50,703 nucleotides of DNA. Origin: Oscillospiraceae bacterium. GTDB lineage: Bacteria; Bacillota; Clostridia; Oscillospirales; Oscillospiraceae. Under the pieces are notes generated by a model, which did not search any database, was not told where the DNA came from, and worked only from the letters and a program-made list of their open reading frames with translations. The stretch covers positions 1 through 50,703 of the forward strand of contig JAFRQP010000084.1 in assembly GCA_017428565.1 (NCBI GenBank), in the 5' to 3' direction. This document shows, one piece after another, positions 4,260 to 45,847 of the stretch; position 1 is the first letter of the stretch, and every line of letters starts with the position of its first letter. The position numbers and the translations under genes are program-made.

Positions 4260-5570
4260 TCACTTCTTTTTACGAAAGGCCGCGCGGAGGGAGTCGGCGT
4301 ATTCCTTGCTGCTGCGCTTCATCAGCAGCACGTAGCCGACCAGCACCAGCAGCGCCAGGAAAGCCGCCGCCACGATCACGCCCACCAGAAGCTTGCCGGA
4401 CTGGGCCTGGCCGGCGGGCTCCCGGGAGGGGATCAGCTCCGGCCCCGGCCGGAGCTCCGGCACGTCGGACTGGGAGGGGAGCACCGTGGGGGGCGTGGAG
4501 CCGCCCTGGGACGGCGCTGCGGGGACCTCCCGCACGGTCACATGAAAGCTGCACTGCAGCTCGCCCCGGCTCACAACGATCTCCTGGCTTCCGGCCCGGT
4601 CCAGCAGCAGCGGCCGGCATTCAAAGCCCTCCTCCAGGAAGCTGGGCGCGTCCCCGCCGGTCTCCACCAGCACCAGACCCCGGGTGTCCAGCGTCTCGCC
4701 CACCTGGTAGTCCAGCTTGTTGGGCAGGCGGTATACCGCGATGGCCGCGGGGGCCGCCTCCTCCTGGACCTGGACGGTGAAGCTGCAGGTCTTGTCCTCG
4801 TAGCGCACGGTGATGAGCTGCTGCCCGGGCTGGTCCAGCACCATGGGCTCGCAGAGCAGGCCCTCGACCACGTCCCGGGTGCCGTTGTTGGTGTAGACCC
4901 GGATGGAGAGACCCGTGGGATCCAGCGTGTCGCCCACCTCATAGATGATCTGGTTGGGCAGGGTCAGCACGCCGATGCCCTCGATGACCTCGGCGCCGGG
5001 CTCGATCTCCACCTCAAAGTAGCAGAGCAGCCCCTCGTAATTCACCTCGATGATGCGGGTGCCGGCCTGCTCCAGATGGATGGGGTAGAGGGAATAGCCC
5101 TCCGTGACCAGGCGGCTGCTGCCGTCGCTCATCTGCACGCGCAGGCTGAGCCCTGCGGGGTCCAGCAGGTCCCCGGCGGTGTAGAGCGTCTTGTCCGGCA
5201 GGGTCTCCACCGCGACGCTGACCGGCGCGGGCGCAGGCGCATCGCCCGCTTTCACCGTGACGGTGAGCAGGCTTTCCGTGTCGTTATAGCGGATGAACAG
5301 ATCGTAGACCCCGGGGGACGTGGGGACGCCCCGCAGATATACGTTGACGCCCACCTCGGTCTCCACCGTCTCCAGCCGCAGGCCGGGGGGGAGCTGGGCG
5401 GGATCGGTCCAGGCGGTGCCGCCGGGATCCAGGGTGGCCAGCAGGTGGTCCACCTCCTCGCCCACGACGAAATCCTCCGGCGCGGGATAGATCACGTCCG
5501 CGCAGGCGACCACCGGGATCAGAAGCATCAGCAGCAGAACCAGCGCCGCTGAGATCCATTGCTTTTTCAT
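4260..5570 (-). CDS. Membrane-anchored surface protein with three Ig-like (Big_3) domains
   Basis: A 436-residue exported protein. A signal peptide (MKKQWIS then a ~17-residue hydrophobic core ending VACA) is followed by an N-terminal beta domain (~30-120). Three repeats of about 75 residues follow, each with LPxKxxYxxGDxLDPxGLxLxV, a Leu-rich middle and a CxFxVxV end, the hallmark of Big_3 domains. A Pro/Ser-rich stretch leads to one membrane helix (~395-415) and a short basic cytoplasmic tail ending FRKKK, so it is a type I membrane protein. The start at 5570 follows AGGAAAGGG on the minus strand. It probably acts in adhesion or wall organisation; no enzyme motif is seen. Confidence 0.8.
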   Translation of the reverse strand: MKKQWISAALVLLLMLLIPVVACADVIYPAPEDFVVGEEVDHLLATLDPGGTAWTDPAQLPPGLRLETVETEVGVNVYLRGVPTSPGVYDLFIRYNDTESLLTVTVKAGDAPAPAPVSVAVETLPDKTLYTAGDLLDPAGLSLRVQMSDGSSRLVTEGYSLYPIHLEQAGTRIIEVNYEGLLCYFEVEIEPGAEVIEGIGVLTLPNQIIYEVGDTLDPTGLSIRVYTNNGTRDVVEGLLCEPMVLDQPGQQLITVRYEDKTCSFTVQVQEEAAPAAIAVYRLPNKLDYQVGETLDTRGLVLVETGGDAPSFLEEGFECRPLLLDRAGSQEIVVSRGELQCSFHVTVREVPAAPSQGGSTPPTVLPSQSDVPELRPGPELIPSREPAGQAQSGKLLVGVIVAAAFLALLVLVGYVLLMKRSSKEYADSLRAAFRKKK

Positions 5571-5634
5571 GAAGATTACCCTTTCCTGGCCCTGTTGCAG
5601 GGCAGATCGAGAGCTGTTACAATGATGTGAGGTT

Positions 5635-5663
5635 ACCATAACACATTTTTACCGTTTTGTCAA
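5635..5663 (-). promoter_or_regulatory. Promoter of the Ig-like protein gene
   Basis: On the minus strand: TTGACA (5663-5658), 17-bp spacer, TATGGT (5640-5635). It is divergent to the glucosidase promoter about 50 bp away. Confidence 0.75.
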
Positions 5664-5712
5664 CATTTTGATAATTTTTTGAAGAATTGTGGGGGAGGGG
5701 GGCGCTTTTCGG

Positions 5713-5741
5713 TTGCTTATGGGCGGCCCATGTGGTAAAAT
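5713..5741 (+). promoter_or_regulatory. Promoter of the GH13 glucosidase-ispE transcript
   Basis: TTGCTT (5713-5718), 17-bp spacer, TAAAAT (5736-5741) with an extended -10 TGG. The spacer contains ATGGGCGGCCCAT, a 13-bp palindrome that could be an operator, though no regulator is identifiable. Confidence 0.7.
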
Positions 5742-5778
5742 ACAAAGCAAATAAGCGATTCACGGAGGAGGATGCACC

Positions 5779-8043
5779 ATGGCGCGGACACAGTGGTACA
5801 AAGAGATGGCGGTCTACCAGATCTGGCCCCGCAGCTTTTGCGACGGCAACGGCGACGGGATCGGGGATCTGAGGGGCGTGCTCTCCAAGCTGGACTACAT
5901 CAAGAGCCTGGGGGTGGACGCCATCTGGTTCTCTCCCCTCTATCCCTCGCCCAACGCGGACTTCGGCTACGACATCTCGGACTACAAGAACATCCATCCG
6001 GACTACGGCGATCTGGAGCTGTTCAAGCAGGTGCTGGAGGGCGCCCATGAGCGGGGCCTGCGGGTCTTTATGGACCTGGTGGTGAACCACACGTCCGATG
6101 AGCACCCCTGGTTTCTGGAGAGCAAAAAGGGGAAGGACAACCCCTATCACGACTACTACATCTGGCGGCCGGGGAAGACCGTCCGGGGCAAGCGGAAGCC
6201 CCCCAACAACTGGACCAGCCTTTTTGAGGGCGGAGCCTGGGAATATGACGAGGGTTTGGACGAATACTATCTCCACCTCTTTGCCAAAAAGCAGCCGGAT
6301 CTGAACATGGCGAACCCCAAGGTGCGCCGGGAGGTGAAGGAGATCCTGCGCTTCTGGCTGGACCTGGGGGTGGACGGCTTCCGGGAGGACGTGGTGACCT
6401 TCATCGCCAAGCAGGAGGGCCTGCCCGACAGCTTCCCGCCCCTGCCCATGGCCAACGGCATGAAATACTATTCCAATCTCCCCGCCGCTCATGACTATCT
6501 GCGGGAGTTCAAGCGGGAGGTGCTGGAGCACTACGACTGCTTCACCGTGGGGGAGAGCCCCATGACCACGCCGGAGACCGCCCTGCGCTACATCGACGAG
6601 GAGGACGACCCGGTGCTGGACGAGATGATCGGCTTTTCCCACATGGAGGCCGACTGTCTGGCCACCGATATGATCCGCCGGCCCTTCAGTCTGCGGAAGA
6701 TGAAGAAGGCCTTCTCCCAGTGGCAGCAGAAGCTGCAGGGCCGGGCCTGGCCCGCGCTGTATCTCGAAAATCACGACCATCCCCGCATCATCAGCCGCTA
6801 CGGCAGCGAGAAGTACTGGCGGGAGAGCGGCAAGATGCTGGCGGCCATGGTCCTGCTGCAGCGGGGCACGCCCTTTATCTACCAGGGCCAGGAGATCGGC
6901 ATGACCAACCTGCGCCTGCCCTCTGTGGAGCAGTACCCGGACGTGATGACCCGCAACAATGTGCGGCTGCTGAAAAAGCTTCTGCCCAAAAAGCAGGTGC
7001 TCAAGGCGGTGCAGGAGGGCGCGCGGGACAACGCCCGCACCCCGGTCCAGTGGTCGGCGGAGAAAAACGCCGGCTTCACCACCGGCACGCCCTGGTTCAC
7101 TGTCAACGAAAATTATACCGGCGTCAACGTGGCGGCCCAGGAGGAGGACCCGGATTCCATCCTGAACTTCTACCGCAGGCTGCTGCAGTTCAGAAAGAAG
7201 CATCCGGTGGCCCTCTGGGGCGACTATGTGGAGCTTCTGCCGGAGGACAAGCATTTATACGTCTACGAGCGCAATTACGAGGGCTCCAAGCTGCTGGTGA
7301 TCTGCTCCTTCACCGATGAGCAGATCCGCTTCCGCGCCCCCGACGGCGTCGTCCTCACGGAGGAGGCGCTGGCCTTCGGCAACTACGAGTGGAACTTTGT
7401 GGTGGCCAACGGCTTCACCACCCGCCCCTATGAGCTGCGGGTCTATCTCTTCGAGCCGGCCGCCGCAAATTCGGAATTCGGAATTCAGAATTCGGAAACG
7501 GAAACCGCCTCCAACGCCTCCGACGCCGCACCCGCCCCCGGCGGCCCGCTGTCGGACGAACCCAACGCCCCCGTAGGGGCCGACGCCCCCGGCGGCCCGT
7601 GCCCTTCCCCCAGCGGGGGAAGGTGCCCCAGTGCGCACACTGGGGCGGATGAGGGAGAACCGTCGGCTCCGGACGACCCCACCGAGGACGCTATCGAACC
7701 CGACGCCGAACCCGTAGGGGCGATTCATGAATCGCCCGCCCCTGCCGAGGAAGATCCTTCGACCCGGCAAGAGGGCCCCGCTCAGGATGACAGCGCCCCC
7801 GGCGGCCCGTGTCCTTCCCCCAGCGGGGGAAGATGCCCCAGTGCGCACACTGGGGCGGATGAGGGAGAACCGTCGGCTCCGGACGACCCCACCGAGGACG
7901 CCACCGAATCCGCCATCGAACCCGTAGGGGCGATTCATGAATCGCCCGCCCCCGCCGAGGAAGATCCTTCGACCCGGCCCGAGGGCCTCGCTCAGGATGA
8001 CAGCGCGCCCCCTGCCCTCGCAAGCGAGGAGGCCGCGCCATGA
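5779..8043 (+). CDS. GH13 alpha-glucosidase with repeat-encoded C-terminal extension
   Basis: A cytoplasmic alpha-glucosidase of the GH13_31 type (oligo-1,6-glucosidase/trehalose-6-phosphate hydrolase relatives). Region I is MDLVVNH (~98-104). The nucleophile is Asp204 in GFRED, the acid/base Glu259 in TVGES, and the third carboxylate Asp333 in ENHDHPR. The enzyme proper ends near residue 559 (YELRVYLFEP), the family's usual length. Residues ~560-754 are an unrelated Pro/Ala/Glu-rich tail encoded by intergenic-type repeats, including a 210-bp (70-codon) tandem duplication. The stop overlaps the ispE start (ATGA). The start follows GGAGGAGG. Exact sugar specificity is not decidable here. Confidence 0.9.
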   Translation: MARTQWYKEMAVYQIWPRSFCDGNGDGIGDLRGVLSKLDYIKSLGVDAIWFSPLYPSPNADFGYDISDYKNIHPDYGDLELFKQVLEGAHERGLRVFMDLVVNHTSDEHPWFLESKKGKDNPYHDYYIWRPGKTVRGKRKPPNNWTSLFEGGAWEYDEGLDEYYLHLFAKKQPDLNMANPKVRREVKEILRFWLDLGVDGFREDVVTFIAKQEGLPDSFPPLPMANGMKYYSNLPAAHDYLREFKREVLEHYDCFTVGESPMTTPETALRYIDEEDDPVLDEMIGFSHMEADCLATDMIRRPFSLRKMKKAFSQWQQKLQGRAWPALYLENHDHPRIISRYGSEKYWRESGKMLAAMVLLQRGTPFIYQGQEIGMTNLRLPSVEQYPDVMTRNNVRLLKKLLPKKQVLKAVQEGARDNARTPVQWSAEKNAGFTTGTPWFTVNENYTGVNVAAQEEDPDSILNFYRRLLQFRKKHPVALWGDYVELLPEDKHLYVYERNYEGSKLLVICSFTDEQIRFRAPDGVVLTEEALAFGNYEWNFVVANGFTTRPYELRVYLFEPAAANSEFGIQNSETETASNASDAAPAPGGPLSDEPNAPVGADAPGGPCPSPSGGRCPSAHTGADEGEPSAPDDPTEDAIEPDAEPVGAIHESPAPAEEDPSTRQEGPAQDDSAPGGPCPSPSGGRCPSAHTGADEGEPSAPDDPTEDATESAIEPVGAIHESPAPAEEDPSTRPEGLAQDDSAPPALASEEAAP
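7591..8010 (+). repeat. In-frame 210-bp tandem duplication built from dispersed repeats
   Basis: Two copies, 7591-7800 and 7801-8010, lie inside the glucosidase gene. Each holds a two-hairpin element (CTTCCCCCAGCGGGGGAAG then CCCCAGTGCGCACACTGGGG), a GTAG-footed REP-like hairpin (GTAG at 7714 and 7924) and an inverted copy of the TGTCATCCTGAG...GAAGGATCT repeat. The same classes occur between genes elsewhere. Because 210 is a multiple of three and no frame has a stop in the used register, the frame stays open to ispE. Confidence 0.92.
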
Positions 8044-8909
8044 GAGAGACGACGGAAAGAGCCTGGGCCAAGCTGAACCTGTCCCTGGACGTCACCGGGC
8101 GGCGGGAGGACGGCTATCACGACCTGGCCATGCTGATGCAGACCGTCTCCGTGGGGGACGAGCTGCGTCTGCGTCTGCGGGACGACGGCAAGGTGTTCGC
8201 CTCGTCCAACCTGCGCTTCATCCCCGGGGATGAGCGGAACCTGGCGGTGCGGGCCGCGCTGCGCTTCTTCGAGGCCCTGGGGATCAGCGGCCAGGGCCTG
8301 CAGATCGACATCCGCAAGGAGATCCCGGTGGGCGCCGGCATGGGCGGCGGCTCCGCGGACGCGGCGGCTGTGCTCCGGGGGCTGAACCGGCTGTACGACA
8401 CGCCCTTTTCCCGCGCCGAGCTGGAGCGCATCTCCCAGCAGATCGGCTCGGACGTGGCCTTCTGCGTGGCGGGGGGCACGGCCCTGGCCCAGGGCCGGGG
8501 GGAGCTCCTGCGGGATCTGCGCCCCATGCCGGACTGCTTTTTCGCCCTGTGCAAGCCGGGCTTTTCCATCTCCACGCCGGAGCTGTACCAGAAGCTGGAC
8601 GCGAGCCCGGTGCGCATACACCCGGACACGGCGGGGCTGCTGGCCGCGGTGGAGGCCGGGGATCTGCGGGCCCTCTGCCGCCGGATGTACAATGTCTTCG
8701 AGGACGTGGACGACCGGCGCCTGCGCACCGTTGCGGAGATCAAGGGCCGCCTGCTGGACTACCGGGCCCTGGGCGCCGTCATGACCGGCACCGGCTCCGC
8801 GGTATTCGGCGTCTTCGAGCGCGCGGAGGACGCGGAGCGGGCCTGCGAATCCCTGCGGGGCGAGTACAAATTCTGCCGCACGGCGAAGCCGGTCCCCCGC
8901 GGGGAGTAG
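8040..8909 (+). CDS. ispE: 4-diphosphocytidyl-2-C-methyl-D-erythritol kinase
   Basis: A 289-residue GHMP kinase that phosphorylates CDP-methylerythritol in the MEP pathway to isoprenoid precursors. The N-terminus has the substrate-side ERAWAKLNLSLDVTGRREDGYHDL motif. The ATP-binding GHMP loop is PVGAGMGGGSADAAAVLRGLN (~97-117). A C-terminal MTGTGSAVFG motif (~248-257) closes the active site. Length matches the family. It starts in the ATGA overlap with the glucosidase, so its translation is probably coupled to the repeat-derived tail of that gene. A strong hairpin terminator follows at 8951. Confidence 0.95.
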   Translation: MRETTERAWAKLNLSLDVTGRREDGYHDLAMLMQTVSVGDELRLRLRDDGKVFASSNLRFIPGDERNLAVRAALRFFEALGISGQGLQIDIRKEIPVGAGMGGGSADAAAVLRGLNRLYDTPFSRAELERISQQIGSDVAFCVAGGTALAQGRGELLRDLRPMPDCFFALCKPGFSISTPELYQKLDASPVRIHPDTAGLLAAVEAGDLRALCRRMYNVFEDVDDRRLRTVAEIKGRLLDYRALGAVMTGTGSAVFGVFERAEDAERACESLRGEYKFCRTAKPVPRGE

Positions 8910-38124: not shown

Positions 38125-39162
38125 CTAAGTGATCTGCGCGAGATATGCTTTCAGTGCCGTGGGGACGGAGTAGCGGGCCCGGATCTCCCCGGCGCGCTCC
38201 CACACAAGGCCGTCCAGCTCTTCGGGCAGCTCCACGAGCCAGCCCCGCATGTGCCACTCCACATGGGTGAAGACGTGCTTTGCCTCGCCGCAGGGGACGA
38301 TGGCGAGGGCCTGGGGGAAGCGCTCCCGCAGCGCCGCCTCGTCCGGGCGGCCCGGCTCGTTGGGAAACTCCCAGAGCCCGGCCAGCAGGCCCTTTTTCTC
38401 CCGCCGGCGGATGGCCCAGCGATCCCCGCAGCGCAGCAGCAGCACCGTCCGCTGTTCCACGCGCCGGGGCCGGGGCGGGGCCTTCACCGGGTAGTCCTCC
38501 GCCGTGCCGGCCTGCCCGGCGCGGCAGAGGCCGCGGAGAGGGCAGAGGGCGCACTTGGGCGCGCCGTTGGGAAGACAGACCGTCTCGCCCAGCTCCATCA
38601 GCCCCTCGGTGACGAGGGCGGCGGCCTCGCCGGAAGGATAGGCCGCCCGCAGCAGGGCGGTCATGGCCTTTTTGACGGCGGGGGAGAGCACGTCCTCCCC
38701 GCTCTCCAGCAACCGGGACAGCACCCGCAGCACGTTCCCGTCCACGGCGGGCTCCGGCTCTCCGCAGGCGATGGAGGCGATGGCCCCGGCGGTGTAGTCT
38801 CCGATGCCGGGGAGCGTTTTCAGCTCCGCCGCCGTGCGGGGCAGCTCGCCGCCCCAGTCCCGCAGCACGGTCTCAGCGGCTTTTTTCAGATTCCGGGCCC
38901 GGCTGTAATAGCCCAGGCCCTCCCAGAGCTTCATCAGCCTGTCGTCCTCCGCCGCGGCCAGAGCCGAAATGTCCGGCAGCTCCGCGAGGAAGCGGCGGTA
39001 GTAGGGGATCACGGCCTCGATGCGGGTCTGCTGCAGCATGATCTCGGAGATCCACACCCGGTAGGGCGTGGGCTCCTCCCGCCAGGGCAGCACACGGCGG
39101 CTGAGAGAATACCAGTCCGCGATCCGCGGCAGGGCTGCTCGTATGATTTCAGCGTCTTCCAT
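38125..39162 (-). CDS. mutY: A/G-specific adenine glycosylase
   Basis: A 345-residue base-excision repair enzyme that removes A mispaired with 8-oxoG. The catalytic domain has WISEIMLQQTRIEAVIPYY with the catalytic Glu, and the helix-hairpin-helix LKTLPGIGDYTAGAIASIACGEPEPAVDGNVLRVLSR with the catalytic Asp. The [4Fe-4S] loop is CLPNGAPKCALCPLRGLC (C-x8-C-x2-C-x5-C). The C-terminal NUDIX-like domain (~225-340, RREKKGLLAGLWEFPNEPG and HVFTHVEWHMRGWLVEL) reads the 8-oxoG. The ATG at 39162 follows AAGAGGTG; the open frame runs on upstream through REP-like repeats, which is not credible as protein. Confidence 0.96.
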   Translation of the reverse strand: MEDAEIIRAALPRIADWYSLSRRVLPWREEPTPYRVWISEIMLQQTRIEAVIPYYRRFLAELPDISALAAAEDDRLMKLWEGLGYYSRARNLKKAAETVLRDWGGELPRTAAELKTLPGIGDYTAGAIASIACGEPEPAVDGNVLRVLSRLLESGEDVLSPAVKKAMTALLRAAYPSGEAAALVTEGLMELGETVCLPNGAPKCALCPLRGLCRAGQAGTAEDYPVKAPPRPRRVEQRTVLLLRCGDRWAIRRREKKGLLAGLWEFPNEPGRPDEAALRERFPQALAIVPCGEAKHVFTHVEWHMRGWLVELPEELDGLVWERAGEIRARYSVPTALKAYLAQIT

Positions 39163-39230: not shown

Positions 39231-39470
39231 CCTGTAGGGACGACCATTGGTCGTCCGCTGACATGAGCGCTGGTCGGACAGGCGGACGAGCAATGCTCGT
39301 CCCTACGGCGCAGACCGGTGTTCCCCGTAGGGGCGATAGCCGAATCGCCCGCCGACATGGACGCGTGTCAGACAAGCGGGCGGGGACAAGCCCCGCCCCA
39401 ACGGCGCAGGCCCACGTTCCCCCGTAGGGGCGATAGCCAAATCGCCCGCCGACATGGGCGCTGCCCCTAC
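39231..39470. repeat. BIME-like cluster of alternating REP-like units
   Basis: GTAG-footed hairpins point right at 39234, 39327 and 39424, and left (CTAC) at 39306 and 39470, with a variant inverted unit near 39376-39400 whose foot is degenerate. Examples are GGACGACC-ATT-GGTCGTCC and GGGCGAT-AGCCGA-ATCGCCC. The spacers share a CGACATG(G/A)(A/G)CG...TCAGACAAGCG core. 39163-39230 and 39471-39520 hold no gene. Confidence 0.88.
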
Positions 39471-39479
39471 AAACACAGG

Positions 39480-39506
39480 AAGCCGGAGGCGGGGCCTCCG
39501 GCTTTT
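39480..39506. terminator. Terminator after the M56/beta-helix gene
   Basis: An 11-bp stem AAGCCGGAGGC/GCCTCCGGCTT with a GGG loop. It has TTTT on the plus side and lies 15 bases past the minus-strand stop at 39521. Confidence 0.65.
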
Positions 39507-39520
39507 CTGTGCGATAGAGT

Positions 39521-42500
39521 TTAGGGCGCTGGGGTGGGCGCGGGGGAGGCGTCCCTGACGTAGACGGTCATCTGCCGGCTGACGCCGCGGTATTCCGCCG
39601 TCAGGGTCACGCCGCCCTGCACGGGCCGCAGCGCCTCGATCCGGCAGTAGCGCCCGTCCGGGCTCGGCTCGATCTGCAGAGCGTCGGGATCGCTGACCGT
39701 CCAGCTGATCTCCGCGTCGGGGAAGAGACCCAGGGGGTAGATCCGTGTGGACAGGGTGACGGCGTCGCCCTTGTTCAGCGTGAACTCCGTCATTTCCATG
39801 GGCCCGTTGAAGACCCGCAGAGGCTCGGGCGTCCGGTTGTCCGGCATGGGTGCGGCGAGAGAGACGGCGGTAAGACGCAACAGAGGCGCGGCGTCGGCAG
39901 TCCGATCCTGCCCGAAGGCCAGATAGCCGCCGCAGAAGGTGTTGCCGAAGAGGGACGCGCCGAAGCTGTCCAGAGGAGCGTCCGCGATCTGCCGCCGGAA
40001 CTCCGGCGTCAGCAGAGCGTCCAGATCCAGGGCGAGAAAGTCCTCCGGGCTCAGCGCGTCGATGGACCTGGTGCCGGTCAGGATATGGAAGGGATAATAG
40101 AGCTGCTCGCTCAGCGCCTCCCAGTTGCCCTCGGCGATGTTTTGCTGGATCTCGCCGGCAAAAACGAAGACTTCATCCGTAGGCGTGCCATTGGGAATAA
40201 AGTCCCGGGGCGGCAGCAGATCGAAGGGATAGATCGACTCGGGATAAACCTCGGCGTAGCCGTCGGCGTTGGACACGTTCTCCAGCTCCAGAAGGGTGCC
40301 GTCGGCGCCCAGGTCGTACATCTCGCCGGTCATGGGCTCGCCGTTCCAGCTCTTGTCGCCGCATTCCCGGAGATTCAGGGCGGGGCTGGGCACGTCGTGG
40401 ATATCGCAGCCTTCAAAGCGGACGCCGTCGGTTCGCCACATATACACGCCGCCCTGGGAGCAGTCGTAGATCTCGCAGTCCTTGGCGCTGAGGCCGGTGC
40501 AGCTCCGGCATTCCAGCCCCAGCACGCCGCAGCCGTAGAGCCGGCAGGAATACAGCTGAATGTCGTGGCAGCCGTCAAAGTACAGCACGCCGCCGCTGCA
40601 CTCGCCGGGCGCCTCCGTATGGCCGGCGGTGAAGCCCTCCAGGCGGATGTTCTCGCAGTCCCGGAAAGTCAGAACGTTTGCGAAGCGGGGTACGGCGGCC
40701 AGGGTAGTGGCGGCGGGATCGTCGGAGGCCGCCCGGATGCTCAGCCCGGTGACGCCGGTGATGACCAGCGCCGGGCCGTCGGGGCCTTCCGCCCAGTAGT
40801 AGTACTCCGTGCCCATGCCGCCATAGTTGGCGGCGGAGGAGAGGTCAAAGAGCGCCCCGTCCAGTACAATGGTCCGGTCCGGCCCGATGGCGGCCAGCAG
40901 CTCGTCCACGTTTTTGACGGTGACGCTGCCGCCCGCGGGCAGATCCAGCGCGGAGGCGGCGGGCTGGGGAGCCTGCACCGTAACCGGGTCGATCTGCCGG
41001 TATTCCATGGCCTGCAGGGCCGCGGCGTCCAGCGCCCGCCCTTCGGCGTCCACGGGGAAGACGCCGCTGCCGTAGACCCAGCGCCTGGCCTCGTTGCCCC
41101 GGAAGCTGCAGCCGTCCACGGTGACGGGGTAGCGCTCCATCTGGAACATGGTGGTGTAGAATTCATTGTCCTCCACGGTGTTGGAGAGGAAGAGCACGCC
41201 CTTGGAGAGGGTGGAATTCAGCAGGATCTGGCTGAGATTGCCGTGGATGCGGCAGCCGGTGATGACGAAATCCTCGCTGTCGTAGGCGGTGAAGAGATTG
41301 ACTGCCGCGGAGCCCTCGAGCTTGGTGCCGTTGCGCTCGATCTCGCAGTTTTCCACCAGCGCCTGCCGGCACTGGCTGACGCTGACGGCGCTGTAGCTGC
41401 ACTCGTAGAGATGGCAGCCCGTCACGCTCAGGCCGGTGCATTCGTTGGCGTCCACGCCGATGGTGCCGCAGCCGAAGAGCCCGCAGGCGTCCACGGCCGC
41501 GTCGCGGCAGCCGTCGAAGCGGAGCACCCCGCCCATGCAGACGCCGGGGGCCTGGGTATGCCCGGCGGTGAGAGCTTCCACGCGCAGCTCCCAGCAGTTC
41601 ACAAAACGCAGGACGTTGGCGTAGCGGGGCGTGGCGGAAATGACCGTCTCCCCCTCTCCGGCGCCCCGGAGGATCAGATTCTCCGCCCCCAGGATCTGCA
41701 GCTCGTAGCCGGGATGGTCGGGATCACCGGCCGGAACCTTGACCCAGCTGTAGTAGGGATTGTTGCTCTCCTGCCCGTAGTCGGACGCGGCGGAGAGCTC
41801 GTACTCGCCGGGGGCGAGAATAACGGTGGTGTTGGGGGCGATGGCGGCCAGCAGGCCGTCCACGTCGGAGACCTCTACCGTGGCCTCCTCCCGGGGGACG
41901 ATGGTGGCGTCGCTTCCGCCTTCCGCCGGGCCTGCCGCAACGCCGCAGCCGCAGAGCAGCAGCAGGGCCAGCAAGGCGGCCAGAACGCGCCCCTTGCTCT
42001 TTTTATAGTGCATGATTTGCTCCAATCTTTCTTTCAGATTCCTCTTCTCCGTGGAGAAGGTGGTGGCGACCACCCCGGCGGGCAGGGCGGTGCTGGCCGC
42101 CATGCGCAGCAGGGTCTCGCCGTAAGCCTGCTTCTCCGCCCGGTCCATGGAGCGCAGCAGCGCCTCGTCGCAGCTCAGCTCGCAGGCCCGGTTCAGCTCC
42201 CGGCGGATCAGCCAGGAGAGGGGGTTGAACCAGTGCAGGCTCAGTACCGCCGCGGCGAACCACTTGTACAGCGGGTCCCGCCGCCGGTAGTGGCAGAGCT
42301 CATGGCGCAGCACGTTCCGAAGCCGCTCCGGGTCCTCCGTCTCCGCCGGCAGCACGATCCGGGGCCGGAGAACGCCGAACATCAGCGGCGTGGGCAGGCC
42401 GGGGCAGAGATACAGCCTGGGCTTGCGCCCGGGAATGGCGGCATAGAGGGCGGCGAGGGCCTCTCCCGGCTCCCGCAGACGTCGGCGCAGGGCGGCGGTG

Positions 42501-42967
42501 AAGCGCAGATAGCTCACCAGCGGCCAAAGGAAGCACAGCGCGGCTCCCAGCCCCCACAGGGAGAGCCAAAGGGCGGGCGAGCGCCAGTCAAAGCCGGCCT
42601 TGGTCTGGGGCGCGGGAGCCTCCGCAAGCTGGGGCGCCTGAGGCTGCGCGGTCTCCTGAGTCGGCGCCGTCTCCGGCGCGGGCGCCTGGGCGGAAACGGC
42701 GGGCTGCACGGCCACGGGAAAGGCCGTGTCCGCCGCCTCCACATAGGTGTTTTCCTGCAGCGGAGCAGGCGTGGGCAGCGCCGGCGCGGGCTCGCTCTGC
42801 CCCGTGGGGATCAGCCCCGGCAGGGGCAGGAGAAAGCGCAGCAGCACCAACAGCCAGGCATAGTAATACACGGCGCTGGGCAGCCTTCGGCGCAGCAAAA
42901 GGCGCAGGCAGAGCAGCAGCAGGGCCAAGGCGCTGCCGCTGAGCGTCAGAGAGAGCAGCGTCTCCAT
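39521..42967 (-). CDS. BlaR1-like M56 metallopeptidase fused to two right-handed beta-helix domains
   Basis: A 1148-residue membrane sensor-protease. Residues ~1-335 form an M56 (BlaR1/MecR1) unit: membrane helices near 8-27, 32-52, 132-152 and 327-341, the zinc motif HELCH (222-226) and the downstream CELSCDEA (262-269). The last helix ends LLLCGCG, like a lipobox. Then come two parallel beta-helix domains (~362-650 and ~690-905) rich in short GC-LYxCxxxGVxxxxCxGLSVxxCxIYxC coils, as in NosD/pectate-lyase-type repeats. An Ig-like C-terminus (~1050-1140) follows. BlaR1 relatives cleave the BlaI repressor upon ligand binding; the beta-helix part replaces the penicillin-sensor. The blaI-like gene precedes it, 3 bases apart. 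Confidence 0.82.
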   Translation of the reverse strand: METLLSLTLSGSALALLLLCLRLLLRRRLPSAVYYYAWLLVLLRFLLPLPGLIPTGQSEPAPALPTPAPLQENTYVEAADTAFPVAVQPAVSAQAPAPETAPTQETAQPQAPQLAEAPAPQTKAGFDWRSPALWLSLWGLGAALCFLWPLVSYLRFTAALRRRLREPGEALAALYAAIPGRKPRLYLCPGLPTPLMFGVLRPRIVLPAETEDPERLRNVLRHELCHYRRRDPLYKWFAAAVLSLHWFNPLSWLIRRELNRACELSCDEALLRSMDRAEKQAYGETLLRMAASTALPAGVVATTFSTEKRNLKERLEQIMHYKKSKGRVLAALLALLLLCGCGVAAGPAEGGSDATIVPREEATVEVSDVDGLLAAIAPNTTVILAPGEYELSAASDYGQESNNPYYSWVKVPAGDPDHPGYELQILGAENLILRGAGEGETVISATPRYANVLRFVNCWELRVEALTAGHTQAPGVCMGGVLRFDGCRDAAVDACGLFGCGTIGVDANECTGLSVTGCHLYECSYSAVSVSQCRQALVENCEIERNGTKLEGSAAVNLFTAYDSEDFVITGCRIHGNLSQILLNSTLSKGVLFLSNTVEDNEFYTTMFQMERYPVTVDGCSFRGNEARRWVYGSGVFPVDAEGRALDAAALQAMEYRQIDPVTVQAPQPAASALDLPAGGSVTVKNVDELLAAIGPDRTIVLDGALFDLSSAANYGGMGTEYYYWAEGPDGPALVITGVTGLSIRAASDDPAATTLAAVPRFANVLTFRDCENIRLEGFTAGHTEAPGECSGGVLYFDGCHDIQLYSCRLYGCGVLGLECRSCTGLSAKDCEIYDCSQGGVYMWRTDGVRFEGCDIHDVPSPALNLRECGDKSWNGEPMTGEMYDLGADGTLLELENVSNADGYAEVYPESIYPFDLLPPRDFIPNGTPTDEVFVFAGEIQQNIAEGNWEALSEQLYYPFHILTGTRSIDALSPEDFLALDLDALLTPEFRRQIADAPLDSFGASLFGNTFCGGYLAFGQDRTADAAPLLRLTAVSLAAPMPDNRTPEPLRVFNGPMEMTEFTLNKGDAVTLSTRIYPLGLFPDAEISWTVSDPDALQIEPSPDGRYCRIEALRPVQGGVTLTAEYRGVSRQMTVYVRDASPAPTPAP

Positions 42968-42970
42968 CCC

Positions 42971-43348
42971 TCAGTCCTCCACGCGGAACATCTGCCGCAG
43001 CTCGTCCAGGTCGTCCCGGCTCAGCCCCTCGGAATGCACCAGGGCCGCCACCAGATCCTTGGCGCTGCCCCGGTACAGGCGACGGATCAGCTCGCCGGTG
43101 GCCCAGGCGTTATATTCCTCCTGCGAAATGGCGGGGGAGTAGTAGAAGACCTTGCGCTTTTCCTGCAGCAGGGCGCCCTTGCTCACCAGACGGGAGACCA
43201 GGGTCTTCACGGTGGTGGCCTCCCAGCCCCGGCTGCGCTGCAGCGCCTCCCGGATCTCCGTGACGGGCAGGGCGTCCCCCGCCTGCCACAGGAGTTTCAT
43301 GACCTCCAGCTCGGAGTCGGAAATTTTATCGGCCAGGGGATTGTTCAT
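42971..43348 (-). CDS. blaI: BlaI/MecI/CopY-family repressor
   Basis: A 125-residue winged-helix repressor. ISDSELEVMKLLWQAGDALPVTEIREALQRSRGWEATTVKTLVSRLVSKGALLQEKRKVFYYSPAISQEEY is a full BlaI domain, including the wing and the segment where BlaR-type proteases cut. The C-terminal helices (LIRRLYRGSAKDLVAALVHSEGLSRDDLDELRQMF) mediate dimerisation. It is co-transcribed with the M56 fusion gene, the usual repressor-sensor pair. The operator-like TGTA/TACA repeats at its own promoter suggest autoregulation. Penicillin as signal is not implied. The start follows AAGGAGG. Confidence 0.93.
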   Translation of the reverse strand: MNNPLADKISDSELEVMKLLWQAGDALPVTEIREALQRSRGWEATTVKTLVSRLVSKGALLQEKRKVFYYSPAISQEEYNAWATGELIRRLYRGSAKDLVAALVHSEGLSRDDLDELRQMFRVED

Positions 43349-43382
43349 GGGAAGAACCTCCTTTTAAAAATGCAGGATAGAT

Positions 43383-43407
43383 TACACATGTAGTCCGGAC
43401 GCCTACA
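43383..43407 (-). promoter_or_regulatory. Probable BlaI operator
   Basis: TACACATGTA (43383-43392) and the dyad TGTAG-9-CTACA (43389-43407) overlap the -10 and start point of the blaI promoter. BlaI/MecI boxes are built around TACA/TGTA, so the fit is good but unproven. Confidence 0.65.
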
Positions 43408-43435
43408 CCATAGCACGGGAGACTATATTTGTCAA
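43407..43435 (-). promoter_or_regulatory. Promoter of blaI and the M56 fusion gene
   Basis: Minus strand: TTGACA (43435-43430), 17-bp spacer, TATGGT (43412-43407). A palindrome ATTCTTAAGAAT lies eight bases upstream (43444-43455). Confidence 0.78.
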
Positions 43436-43502: not shown

Positions 43503-43606
43503 CGTGTCATCCTGAACGAGCGAAGCGAGTCGAAGGATCTCGCCCCCGGCGCAAGGGCGGACAGGGACGCGGGTCAGACAGAGAGACGAGCGATGCTCGT
43601 CCCTAC
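43503..43606. repeat. TGTCATCCTGA-type repeat next to a REP-like unit
   Basis: TGTCATCCTGAACGAGCGAA with GTCGAAGGATCT (43503-43541), then a GACAGGGACGCGGGTCAGACA spacer and an inverted REP-like hairpin (GGACGAGC-type arms, foot CTAC at 43603). The same combination occurs in frame in two genes of the window. Confidence 0.85.
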
Positions 43607-43630
43607 GGCCCGGACGGCGCTGCCCCAACA

Positions 43631-43670
43631 AACACAGAAGCCGGAGGCCCTTGCCTCTGGCTTCTGTGTT
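43631..43670. terminator. Terminator after the beta-helix lipoprotein gene
   Basis: An 18-bp stem AACACAGAAGCCGGAGGC/GCCTCTGGCTTCTGTGTT (one G-T pair) with loop CCTT, 33 bases past the minus-strand stop at 43703. T-runs are poor. Confidence 0.6.
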
Positions 43671-43702: not shown

Positions 43703-45847
43703 TCAGCGCGCGCTGATGCGCACGGGGATCTCACAGCGCCCGTTTCCGCAGTCCGCGCTCAGGTTCAGATCGCCGTCCGCAGCCTTCAGCGCCTTGACGA
43801 TGCACTGCCGTCCGCCGTTGATGGGGGTCAGCTGCAGATAGGCCGTCCCGTCGCAGCTCCATACGCTGGCCATCTGCGCCTGCTGGCCGTAGCTGCCGAA
43901 GCCCTTGGCCGTCAGGATCACGCTGTCCTGCTCCTTCAGATCCAGAGAGAGCAGCTCCTGGTTCTGGTAGTAGATGCAGAGCTCTTCCAGAGGAAAGTCC
44001 TCCCGCAGCTCCGCATAGGAGAGATCGGAGGGCAGGGGGATCAGACTGCCGTCGTGCCGATCCACGTTGTACTGGCCGCCCTGCTGGGACTCGCCGTTCC
44101 AGGTGACGCGCAGGCAGTTGTACAGCGCCAGAGCGGGGCTGGGCACGTCGTGAATGTCGCAGTCAAGGAAGCTTGCGTCCTGCACCTCGTAGAACAGGAC
44201 CCCGCCGTCGGAGCAGTCGTAGATCTCGCAGCGCTCCAGGGAGATCCAGCTGCTGTCGGTAGCGTTCAGGCCCAGCACGCCGCAGCCGTAGAGCCGGCAG
44301 TCCGTCAGCGCCAGGCCGCTGCCGTAGCGGAAGTCCACCACGCCGCCGGCGCAGCTGCCCGCGCCCCGGGTGTGACCCAGGGTGAAGCCCTCCAGCGTTA
44401 CGTTATGACAGCCGCAGAAGCTGAGGACATTGGCGTAGCGGGGCACGGTCACCAGACTGGTTGCCGCCGGGTCCGGATTCGCCGCGCGGATGTGGAGATC
44501 GGAGACCCAGGAGATCACCAGCTCCGGCCCGTCGTAGCAGGAGGCCCAGCGGTAGTAGGGGCTCTCGGAGACCCCGAAGCCCTTGGCGGCGCTGAGATCA
44601 AAGACCTCCCCGTCCAGCACGATGGTGCGGTTGGGGCCGATGGCGTCCAGGAACTCATCCGCCGTGGTGACGGTGATGGTCTGCTCGGGCCCGGGCTCCT
44701 CCCGCAGGGGAAGTCTGCCCGCCGGGTCGATGGCGGCGTAGACCATGGAGAAGAGCTCCCGCTCGCTCAGCGACTTGCCCGTCAGATCCGCGGGGGGCAG
44801 CCCCTCGGGGCTTGCCCAGGCGTAGACCGCGCCCTCCGGGCCGCTGAAGCTGCAGCCGTCCACCACGCAGGGATTGTCGTAGTTCTGGAAGCCGTAGACC
44901 AGCACGTTGTTGCTGACCCGGTCGGACAGGAAGAAGCAGTTGCGGCTGCCGGTGCTGAGGAAGAGATAGTTGGCGCGGTTGCTGTAAACGGAGCAGTTGG
45001 TGACGACGAAGCCGTCGGTGTCGTTGGCCTGGAAGAGGGCATAGGCGCTGAAGTCCTCGCTGCCGATCTCATAGACCTCGCTGCCGTCCACCCACAGGTC
45101 CCGGCAGTTTGCGGCCTGCACGGCGGCGCTGCTGCACTCGTAGATCTGGGTGTCCAGGACGGTGAGCCCGTCGCAGCCCTGCGCGTAGACGCCCACGGTG
45201 CCGCAGCCGAAGAGACCGCAGCCCTGCACCTTCGCGTCCGTGCAGCATGCAAAGTCCAGCACGCCGCCCATGCACTCGCCGCGATCCGGGCTGTGACCGG
45301 CGGTGATCCCCTCCACGGACACGCCGCTGCAGTTGCGGAAGGTGATCACGAACACATAGCGGGGCAGGGCGTTGAGGAAGCTGACGCCCCGGCCGGCGCC
45401 CCGGATGGTCAGGCCCTCCACATCATGGATCTCCAGGCCGAACTCCGGCTCGTCATAGGTCGGCGCCATGTTCCAGGTATAGTAGGGGGAGGCGTCAAGC
45501 CTGCCGTAGTTCACGGCCACGGAGAGATCATAGACCCCGGGGGCCATTTCGATGACGGTGTTGGGCGCGATGGCGTCCAGCAGCTCGTCCACATTGGAGA
45601 CGGAGACCGTGACGGGCTCCGGCGTGGGCTCCGGTGTGGGCTCCGGCGCGGGGGCCTCCGTGGGCGCGGGCGCGGGGGAGTCGGTGGGCGCGGGCTCCTG
45701 AGTCTCGGCGGCCTCGGCCTCCTGGCTCTCGGGCTGGGGAGCCTCGGCGCCCTGGGGCTGGGCGGCCTCCTGCGCGCCGCAGCCGCAGAGCAGCAGCAGA
45801 GCCAGCAGGGCCGCCAGCGTCCGCAGCAGTTTTCCGGTTTGTTTCAT
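43703..45847 (-). CDS. Lipoprotein with two right-handed beta-helix domains, paralogue of the M56 fusion
   Basis: A 714-residue lipoprotein. The N-terminus LRTLAALLALLLLCGCG carries a lipobox Cys23 and matches the fourth membrane segment of the neighbouring M56 fusion almost letter for letter. A Pro/Glu/Ala linker (~25-80) is followed by two beta-helix domains (~82-370 and ~385-610), again with VDELLDAIAPNTVIEMAPGVYDLS, FRNCSGVSVEGITAGHS, GLFGCGTVGVYAQGCDGL and CEIYDCSDGGV, and an Ig-like end. Beta-helices of this type bind or cut polysaccharides; I see no clear catalytic residues. The ATG at 45847 is chosen over the upstream extension because it begins the signal peptide. Confidence 0.82.
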   Translation of the reverse strand: MKQTGKLLRTLAALLALLLLCGCGAQEAAQPQGAEAPQPESQEAEAAETQEPAPTDSPAPAPTEAPAPEPTPEPTPEPVTVSVSNVDELLDAIAPNTVIEMAPGVYDLSVAVNYGRLDASPYYTWNMAPTYDEPEFGLEIHDVEGLTIRGAGRGVSFLNALPRYVFVITFRNCSGVSVEGITAGHSPDRGECMGGVLDFACCTDAKVQGCGLFGCGTVGVYAQGCDGLTVLDTQIYECSSAAVQAANCRDLWVDGSEVYEIGSEDFSAYALFQANDTDGFVVTNCSVYSNRANYLFLSTGSRNCFFLSDRVSNNVLVYGFQNYDNPCVVDGCSFSGPEGAVYAWASPEGLPPADLTGKSLSERELFSMVYAAIDPAGRLPLREEPGPEQTITVTTADEFLDAIGPNRTIVLDGEVFDLSAAKGFGVSESPYYRWASCYDGPELVISWVSDLHIRAANPDPAATSLVTVPRYANVLSFCGCHNVTLEGFTLGHTRGAGSCAGGVVDFRYGSGLALTDCRLYGCGVLGLNATDSSWISLERCEIYDCSDGGVLFYEVQDASFLDCDIHDVPSPALALYNCLRVTWNGESQQGGQYNVDRHDGSLIPLPSDLSYAELREDFPLEELCIYYQNQELLSLDLKEQDSVILTAKGFGSYGQQAQMASVWSCDGTAYLQLTPINGGRQCIVKALKAADGDLNLSADCGNGRCEIPVRISAR

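Follow-up and report, generated by a model that had tools for sequence, protein, structure and literature searches.

A BlaI/M56 receptor operon with a double beta-helix ectodomain that may also encode a free lipoprotein inside the receptor gene

The closest described systems to the locus reported here are the BlaR1/BlaI and MecR1/MecI pairs of Staphylococcus aureus and Bacillus licheniformis, and BlaI boxes resemble TACA-TGTA dyads. In one published account (PMC9834060), BlaR1 undergoes autocleavage between Ser283 and Phe284 and its sensor is shed by the signal peptidase I SpsB at Gly331, directly past the last helix; this shedding provides a precedent for release of the outer domain. We analysed a 50,703-nucleotide stretch (the window: contig JAFRQP010000084.1 of assembly GCA_017428565.1, Oscillospiraceae bacterium, a 2.69 Mb draft genome in 105 contigs) which carries on its minus strand a blaI gene followed by a gene for an M56 protease fused to two beta-helix domains. 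From the sequence, this is probably an autoregulated BlaI/M56 operon whose receptor gene also contains the coding sequence of a free lipoprotein. An earlier reading of the DNA from its letters alone (the sequence-only reading) knew of no described system of this kind, and we similarly found no description of the M56-beta-helix architecture in the open-access literature, which was covered mostly as titles and abstract openings.

The blaI gene (42971..43348, minus strand) encodes a 125-residue repressor of the BlaI/MecI type that matched Pfam Penicillinase_R (E 3e-30) and solved MecI/BlaI chains. The fusion open reading frame (ORF; 39521..42967, minus strand, 1148 residues) begins three bases after it, in the adjoining arrangement of a BlaI/BlaR1-type pair, and matched Pfam Peptidase_M56 over residues 3-318 (E 1.9e-47) and Beta_helix over two stretches (E 1.5e-21), with a HELCH zinc site at 42290..42304 (minus strand). 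The repressor, the HELCH protease and its two beta-helix domains had all been proposed at this place by the sequence-only reading, and the ORFs and Pfam matches confirmed them. Its claim that the beta-helices stand where a penicillin-binding domain would be was also supported, as no such domain was listed; the NCBIfam model blaR1_generic reached 93 bits against a cut-off of 400, short of equivalence to BlaR1/MecR1.

A search with an ectodomain alignment gave a match in 89 of the 102 genomes of the genus. The loci examined (L043-L082, L142-L161 and L229-L308, together with the window, a part of the matches in the 102 genomes) held 74 ORFs combining M56 and beta-helix and 54 beta-helix ORFs without M56, with fusions in 69 genomes, free forms in 54 and both in 38. 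These counts include 34 fusion and 5 free ORFs that run to the end of their examined stretch, and the 54 ‘free’ ORFs include the second piece of L070 and probably L077, which are parts of split or cut fusions. In L070 (G013:C22) the fusion is split into two frames, by a pseudogene state or a sequencing error, and was counted from its M56-bearing piece. The architecture is thus not unique to the window, and a chance ORF or an assembly artefact as the source of the fusion was ruled out by the 74 homologous ORFs. Beyond the genus, the ectodomain matched in 16 of 295 genomes of the order, one of them the window's own, and no M56 match was found in the stretches examined for the other 15. The M56-beta-helix architecture is thus frequent within a single genus, with no instance seen elsewhere among the genomes examined.

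The catalytic residues of the receptor are conserved. Residues H222, E223 and H226 of the zinc site, E263 and D267, and D231, Y282 and R314 were invariant in 27 aligned fusions; the last three align with D210, Y261 and R294 of BlaR1 (PMC9834060), which completes the gluzincin set of HEXXH, EXXXD and these equivalents. The HEXXH and EXXXD patterns were each present in 73 of the 74 fusions, the HEXXH miss being L231, whose ORF starts at the first bases of its contig. Similarly, Thr303-Phe304 (42056..42061, minus strand) aligns with the Ser283-Phe284 autocleavage site given for BlaR1 in the same paper, and the Phe was kept in 74/74 fusions.

The last M56 transmembrane helix (41945..42013, minus strand) appears to be more than a membrane anchor. 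A lipobox closes this helix in 65 of the 74 fusions (60/69 distinct sequences), in the window protein at Cys341 (codon 41947-41945), and the Cys follows an invariant Met at a distance of 22 residues in 42 fusions and 23 in 23. These 65 have the charged n-region, hydrophobic core and Cys at approximately 20-25 of a lipoprotein signal, and from Met319 onwards the helix is ordinary-looking as a possible lipoprotein signal peptide. A signal peptidase I site replacing the lipobox in the remaining fusions was considered and dropped, as such a pattern also occurs in 52 of the 65 lipobox fusions, an effect of the abundance of Ala and Pro in the linker. Among other kinds of M56 protein, L164, L167 and L143 have a last helix ending in a lipobox-like motif (VAAGC, AAVAC).

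The codons around this Met look like those of a true start. The proposed internal start region (42011..42040, minus strand) comprises the A-rich AATCTGAAAGAAAGATTGGAGCAAATC and the ATG of Met319, and at codons -10 to -3 the fusions had 286 codons ending in G or C (GC3) where 440 were expected (z -15.5), compared with 172 against 159 expected (z +2.0) in 30 control rows of M56 without beta-helix (9 with the Met). In a GC3 scan of the whole gene against each gene's own codon usage, residues 310-317 were the lowest of 996 windows (z -14.5), with windows away from the Met319 region at z -8.0 to +7.8. K312 and E313 ranked first and second for AT ending among 59 conserved two-fold codons, the Arg314 codon was AGA or AGG in 80% of fusions (at most 20% in 7 other conserved Arg columns), and other strongly conserved residues showed smaller codon deviations than those around Met319. 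The AT profile at Met319 resembled that of 80 blaI starts and 27 free-gene starts and was unlike that of 989 other Met codons, and the RNA nearby was less structured than its synonymous recodings (mean percentile 0.24). Met319 thus carries a start-like nucleotide signal beyond what the protein constrains.

Free genes appear to have arisen repeatedly, some of them starting at this Met. A tree of 124 ectodomains (72 fused and 52 free, four short ORFs of the 128 being left out), built by a quick method and with some long branches, requires at least 12 fused/free changes on well-supported branches. The free gene L282 stands within a fused clade, and its leader DNA still reads KRNLKERLLQI, the end of M56, up to its ATG, and similar leaders were present in L066, L068, L276, L277 and L283; by our own reading of the DNA, several of these free genes keep what appears to be a decayed blaI promoter, with only L276 passing the operator threshold described below. 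When corrected for the choice of ATG, an M56-derived leader joined to the ATG was detected in 15 of 50 free genes at P≤0.05 and in 7 at P≤0.005, with members that are not all independent (L068 and L283 are sisters), compared with 6 of 80 and 0, respectively, for blaI starts; uncorrected, taking the best of several ATGs, the free-gene counts were 16/50 and 6. It seems, then, that on more than one occasion blaI and the bulk of M56 were deleted and a lipoprotein gene starting at the internal Met remained.

The blaI promoter has a -35 box TTGACA (43435-43430), a 17-nt spacer and a probable -10 box TATGGT (43407..43412, minus strand). An operator-like site O1, TTGACAAATATAGTCT, lies over the -35 box (43420..43435, minus strand), and an operator-like dyad O2, GACTACATGTGTAATC, follows at 43380..43395 (minus strand) after a gap of 24 nt, with conserved spacing. 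Calling O1 at 12 or more of 15 positions, and a promoter testable with at least 120 nt upstream (the promoter of fusion L239 was too short), O1 was found in 67/67 testable blaI promoters preceding fusions, as predicted for a BlaI/BlaR1-type pair; the best O2 match after it (10-15 of 16 positions) was separated from it by 24 nt in 42 promoters, by 20 nt in 18 and by 19-25 nt in the other 7. The sequence-only reading had noted a TACA/TGTA operator at this promoter, where the two operator-like sites were found. Among 13 other blaI promoters with enough DNA, O1 was present in six, namely one before an M56-RCC1 fusion (L062), two cut by a contig end (L064, L159) and three that precede fusions and were missed by the distance rule (L070, L261, L264), and was below threshold in seven unrelated ones (L068, L142, L143, L144, L146, L150, L151); five promoters were too short for the test.

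Few other targets of these sites were detected. Exact O1 occurred at 23 places in 22 of 41 genus genomes, compared with 1 for a reversed-pattern control, and 22 of the 23 precede a blaI-M56 pair, the other preceding the free beta-helix gene L160. Allowing at most one mismatch, O2 in the window's own genome was found at its own promoter only (4 sites for the reversed-pattern control), and L160 and L276 were the only free genes of 52 tested to pass the operator threshold. In the species carrying L160 (G061:C126), BlaI may thus control a second copy. No third operon gene that could serve as an output recurred downstream in 19 loci, except among close relatives, in a check that used a greedy ORF choice and not a gene finder; the few downstream genes with matches elsewhere were common to close relatives or without pattern. 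As these tight-pattern scans found almost no other target, the simplest reading may be that the operon mainly controls itself.

One locus offers a natural contrast. In L062 (genome G019, 4957-8641), a 50-55% identical M56 stands behind the same blaI promoter and operator sites, with an RCC1 beta-propeller as ectodomain in the beta-helix position. It has no lipobox, GC-rich codons at the Met and no A-rich stretch, and the next gene is a separate free RCC1 lipoprotein whose RCC1 part is very similar. This single case fits an operon that would deliver its ectodomain in two forms, fused and free.

The two beta-helix domains occupy residues 361-680 (40928..41887, with the connecting region) and 681-900 (40268..40927), both on the minus strand. 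One His and three Cys, spaced 7-23-23, are invariant in each domain across 44 aligned members (His470, Cys477, Cys500 and Cys523 in domain 1; His783, Cys790, Cys813 and Cys836 in domain 2), which by our reading would place one Cys on each 23-residue coil, and family members beyond the genus (L183-L186, L199) show the pattern by eye. This set may be a metal site, a thiol site or a structural ladder. Among the 44 members, Pfam matches were to Beta_helix in 44, NosD in 40, Pect-lyase_RHGA_epim in 3 and Glyco_hydro_28 in 2; the window's own domain pair gave 22.3 bits for NosD against the curated cut-off of 23.6, and a profile search of solved structures with the ectodomain gave no match up to E 0.01. 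The variable C-terminal tail (residues 901-1148; 39524..40267, minus strand) had been read as an Ig-like end and is possibly Ig-like at its terminus; this 249-residue tail matched no Pfam family (best E 0.18), and tails resembling it occur elsewhere in genomes of the genus.

We infer the following working from the architecture, the operator-like sites, the catalytic residues, the lipobox, the nucleotide bias at Met319 and the repeated birth of free genes, some at that Met, all of which can be read in the DNA. BlaI would bind the two operators over its own promoter, and the M56 protein would act as a BlaR1-type receptor whose cytosolic zinc site cuts BlaI while the double beta-helix faces outward. 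The regulated product would be mainly the operon's own beta-helix surface protein. The last receptor helix would also be a complete lipoprotein signal peptide, preceded by the internal start region at Met319, and one gene may in this way yield the whole receptor together with a separate beta-helix lipoprotein anchored by lipid. The beta-helix could also be freed from the whole receptor by BlaR1-like autocleavage at Phe304 and a signal peptidase II cut at Cys341. In this scheme the receptor would register whether or not its beta-helix has bound a ligand and adjust how much beta-helix is displayed at the surface. We put somewhat better than even chances on the combined proposal of a gene within the receptor gene, in which the helix serves as both transmembrane segment and signal peptide, the operon monitors and adjusts how much of its own surface protein is made, and loss of the regulatory half has repeatedly yielded free lipoprotein genes within the genus.

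Several observations weigh against this proposal. The Phe that BlaI/MecI have at the P1' place of cleavage was not found, Leu standing there in the 70 blaI rows preceding fusions (61 by pattern, 9 by eye). The BlaI/BlaR1 logic claimed by the sequence-only reading is supported by catalytic residues, autocleavage Phe and operator and departs at the BlaI cleavage place. The strict lipobox is missing in 9/74 fusions, including one of the closest relatives (L043), these nine still having the A-rich codons, and the motif alone is not specific, since among helices of M56 proteins that lack a beta-helix 14 of 42 distinct ones also show it (approximately 8 near the helix end by eye, some only mid-helix). 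Shine-Dalgarno strength before Met319 was not above that of synonymous recodings (mean percentile 0.58), giving no ribosome-binding signal by this measure, and GGAG and AGG are both absent there in some fusions (for example L154, L155 and L229). The certainty suggested by the z values is too high, as the 74 fusions are kin and windows elsewhere spread from -8 to +8, and at least one gene is duplicated in the 30-row control set (L068/L127). The operator scans were also narrow, the exact O1 pattern missing the window's own site by one mismatch and matching in 22 of 41 genomes, and the O2 scan covering one genome, such that weak or variant targets may exist.

Other explanations were weighed against the same data. 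The gene might give a single product, a BlaR1-type receptor that signal peptidase II cleaves at the lipobox and that also autocleaves on the inside, leaving the beta-helix lipid-anchored, with the codon patch otherwise caused. This is in keeping with the shedding of BlaR1 by SpsB at Gly331 and its autocleavage at Ser283/Phe284 (PMC9834060), with Phe304 in 74/74 and the lipobox in 65/74 fusions, and with L143, an M56 protein that has a terminal lipobox without a Met at the conserved place; we nevertheless regard it as unlikely, for it leaves unexplained both the nucleotide-level bias at Met319 and the start of several M56-less free genes exactly at that Met. The codon patch might instead be a translational pause, or an RNA or DNA element, that aids membrane insertion of the last helix and starts nothing, a proposal to which rare AGA/AGG codons directly ahead of the helix and the unremarkable Shine-Dalgarno strength lend themselves. 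It appears very improbable when the patch is missing from the 30 rows of M56 without beta-helix (the RCC1 version L062 among them), the AT profile runs past the ATG as at real starts and several free genes carry the patch as their leader.

Two further alternatives concern what the ectodomain does. One is sensing of a metal or of thiols, through the set of one His and three Cys that is invariant in both domains of the 44 aligned members and seen by eye in L183-L186 and L199; 40 of the 44 match NosD, a periplasmic copper-binding family, and the CopY model gives the repressor a score that stays under its cut-off. We hold this for rather doubtful, as Cys in such positions can form a structural beta-helix ladder and the NosD match of the window protein, below cut-off, may reflect a shared fold only. 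The beta-helix fold often binds glycans, and the sequence-only reading had accordingly favoured a wall- or glycan-sensing receptor, in which polysaccharide bound by the beta-helix would lead to cleavage of BlaI by M56 and to an induced response, with the helix acting only as a membrane anchor. The intact BlaI/M56 logic and the matches of 3 members to Pect-lyase_RHGA_epim and 2 to Glyco_hydro_28 give it partial support. A pure sensor role fits poorly with the start-like region and signal peptide, with the near absence of targets outside the operon under the patterns used, with the free occurrence of identical domain types (54 ORFs, of which at least the L070 piece and probably L077 are fusion fragments) and with most members matching no glycan-enzyme family, and we consider it distinctly unlikely. 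If the beta-helix is taken more narrowly as sensor and product at once, this view agrees with the main proposal of a free lipoprotein encoded inside the receptor gene.

Upstream of the operon lies a gene that the sequence-only reading did not mention, a free lipoprotein with the same two beta-helix domains (43703..45847, minus strand; signal peptide ...LAALLALLLLCGC), 46% identical over 540 residues; a check of its promoter found no operator. On both flanks of the operon, the intergenic regions 39260-39480 and 43560-43660 contain, by eye, a GC-rich dispersed repeat-like GTAGGGACGAGCATTGCTCGTC and its relatives, which resemble REP/MITE elements. Directly downstream, 38125-39160 (minus strand) carries a probable gene for a MutY-like adenine glycosylase. 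Ten relatives in named records were metagenome-assembled genomes of Oscillospiraceae, Ruminococcaceae or Clostridiales, and 6 of the 10 were labelled with a digestive-tract organ (sheep, roe deer or yak).

If correct, the proposal would bring a large surface protein of gut bacteria, and not only antibiotic resistance, under BlaI/M56 control, and it suggests a compact route by which a single gene provides a receptor along with a free version of that receptor's ectodomain. It would also make visible an evolutionary path from receptor to lipoprotein, in which the front of the gene is deleted and the receptor helix becomes a signal peptide, and the codon signature could serve as a screen of M56 receptors with other ectodomains.

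Compared with BlaR1/BlaI and MecR1/MecI, the window operon shares the adjacent repressor and M56 receptor, the gluzincin residues, the autocleavage Phe, the outer domain past the last helix and the operator-like sites over the promoter. It differs in having two beta-helix domains and no penicillin-binding domain, a lipobox of signal peptidase II type past the last helix where BlaR1 is shed by signal peptidase I (PMC9834060), a start-like region within the gene, no separate output gene found, and Leu in place of Phe at the BlaI P1' position. With NosD and other Beta_helix repeat proteins (PF05048, PF13229) the window protein shares the fold family, while scoring under the NosD cut-off. The free beta-helix lipoproteins and secreted proteins of the genus, such as the neighbour at 45847..43703, have the same two domains, the His/Cys pattern and a similar signal peptide, whereas M56 and BlaI are not in the gene. 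The M56-RCC1 operon of G019 differs in its RCC1 ectodomain, its free version encoded by a separate gene, and its lack of a lipobox and of A-rich codons at the Met, but shares with the window the promoter, the operator sites, BlaI and the M56 chassis.

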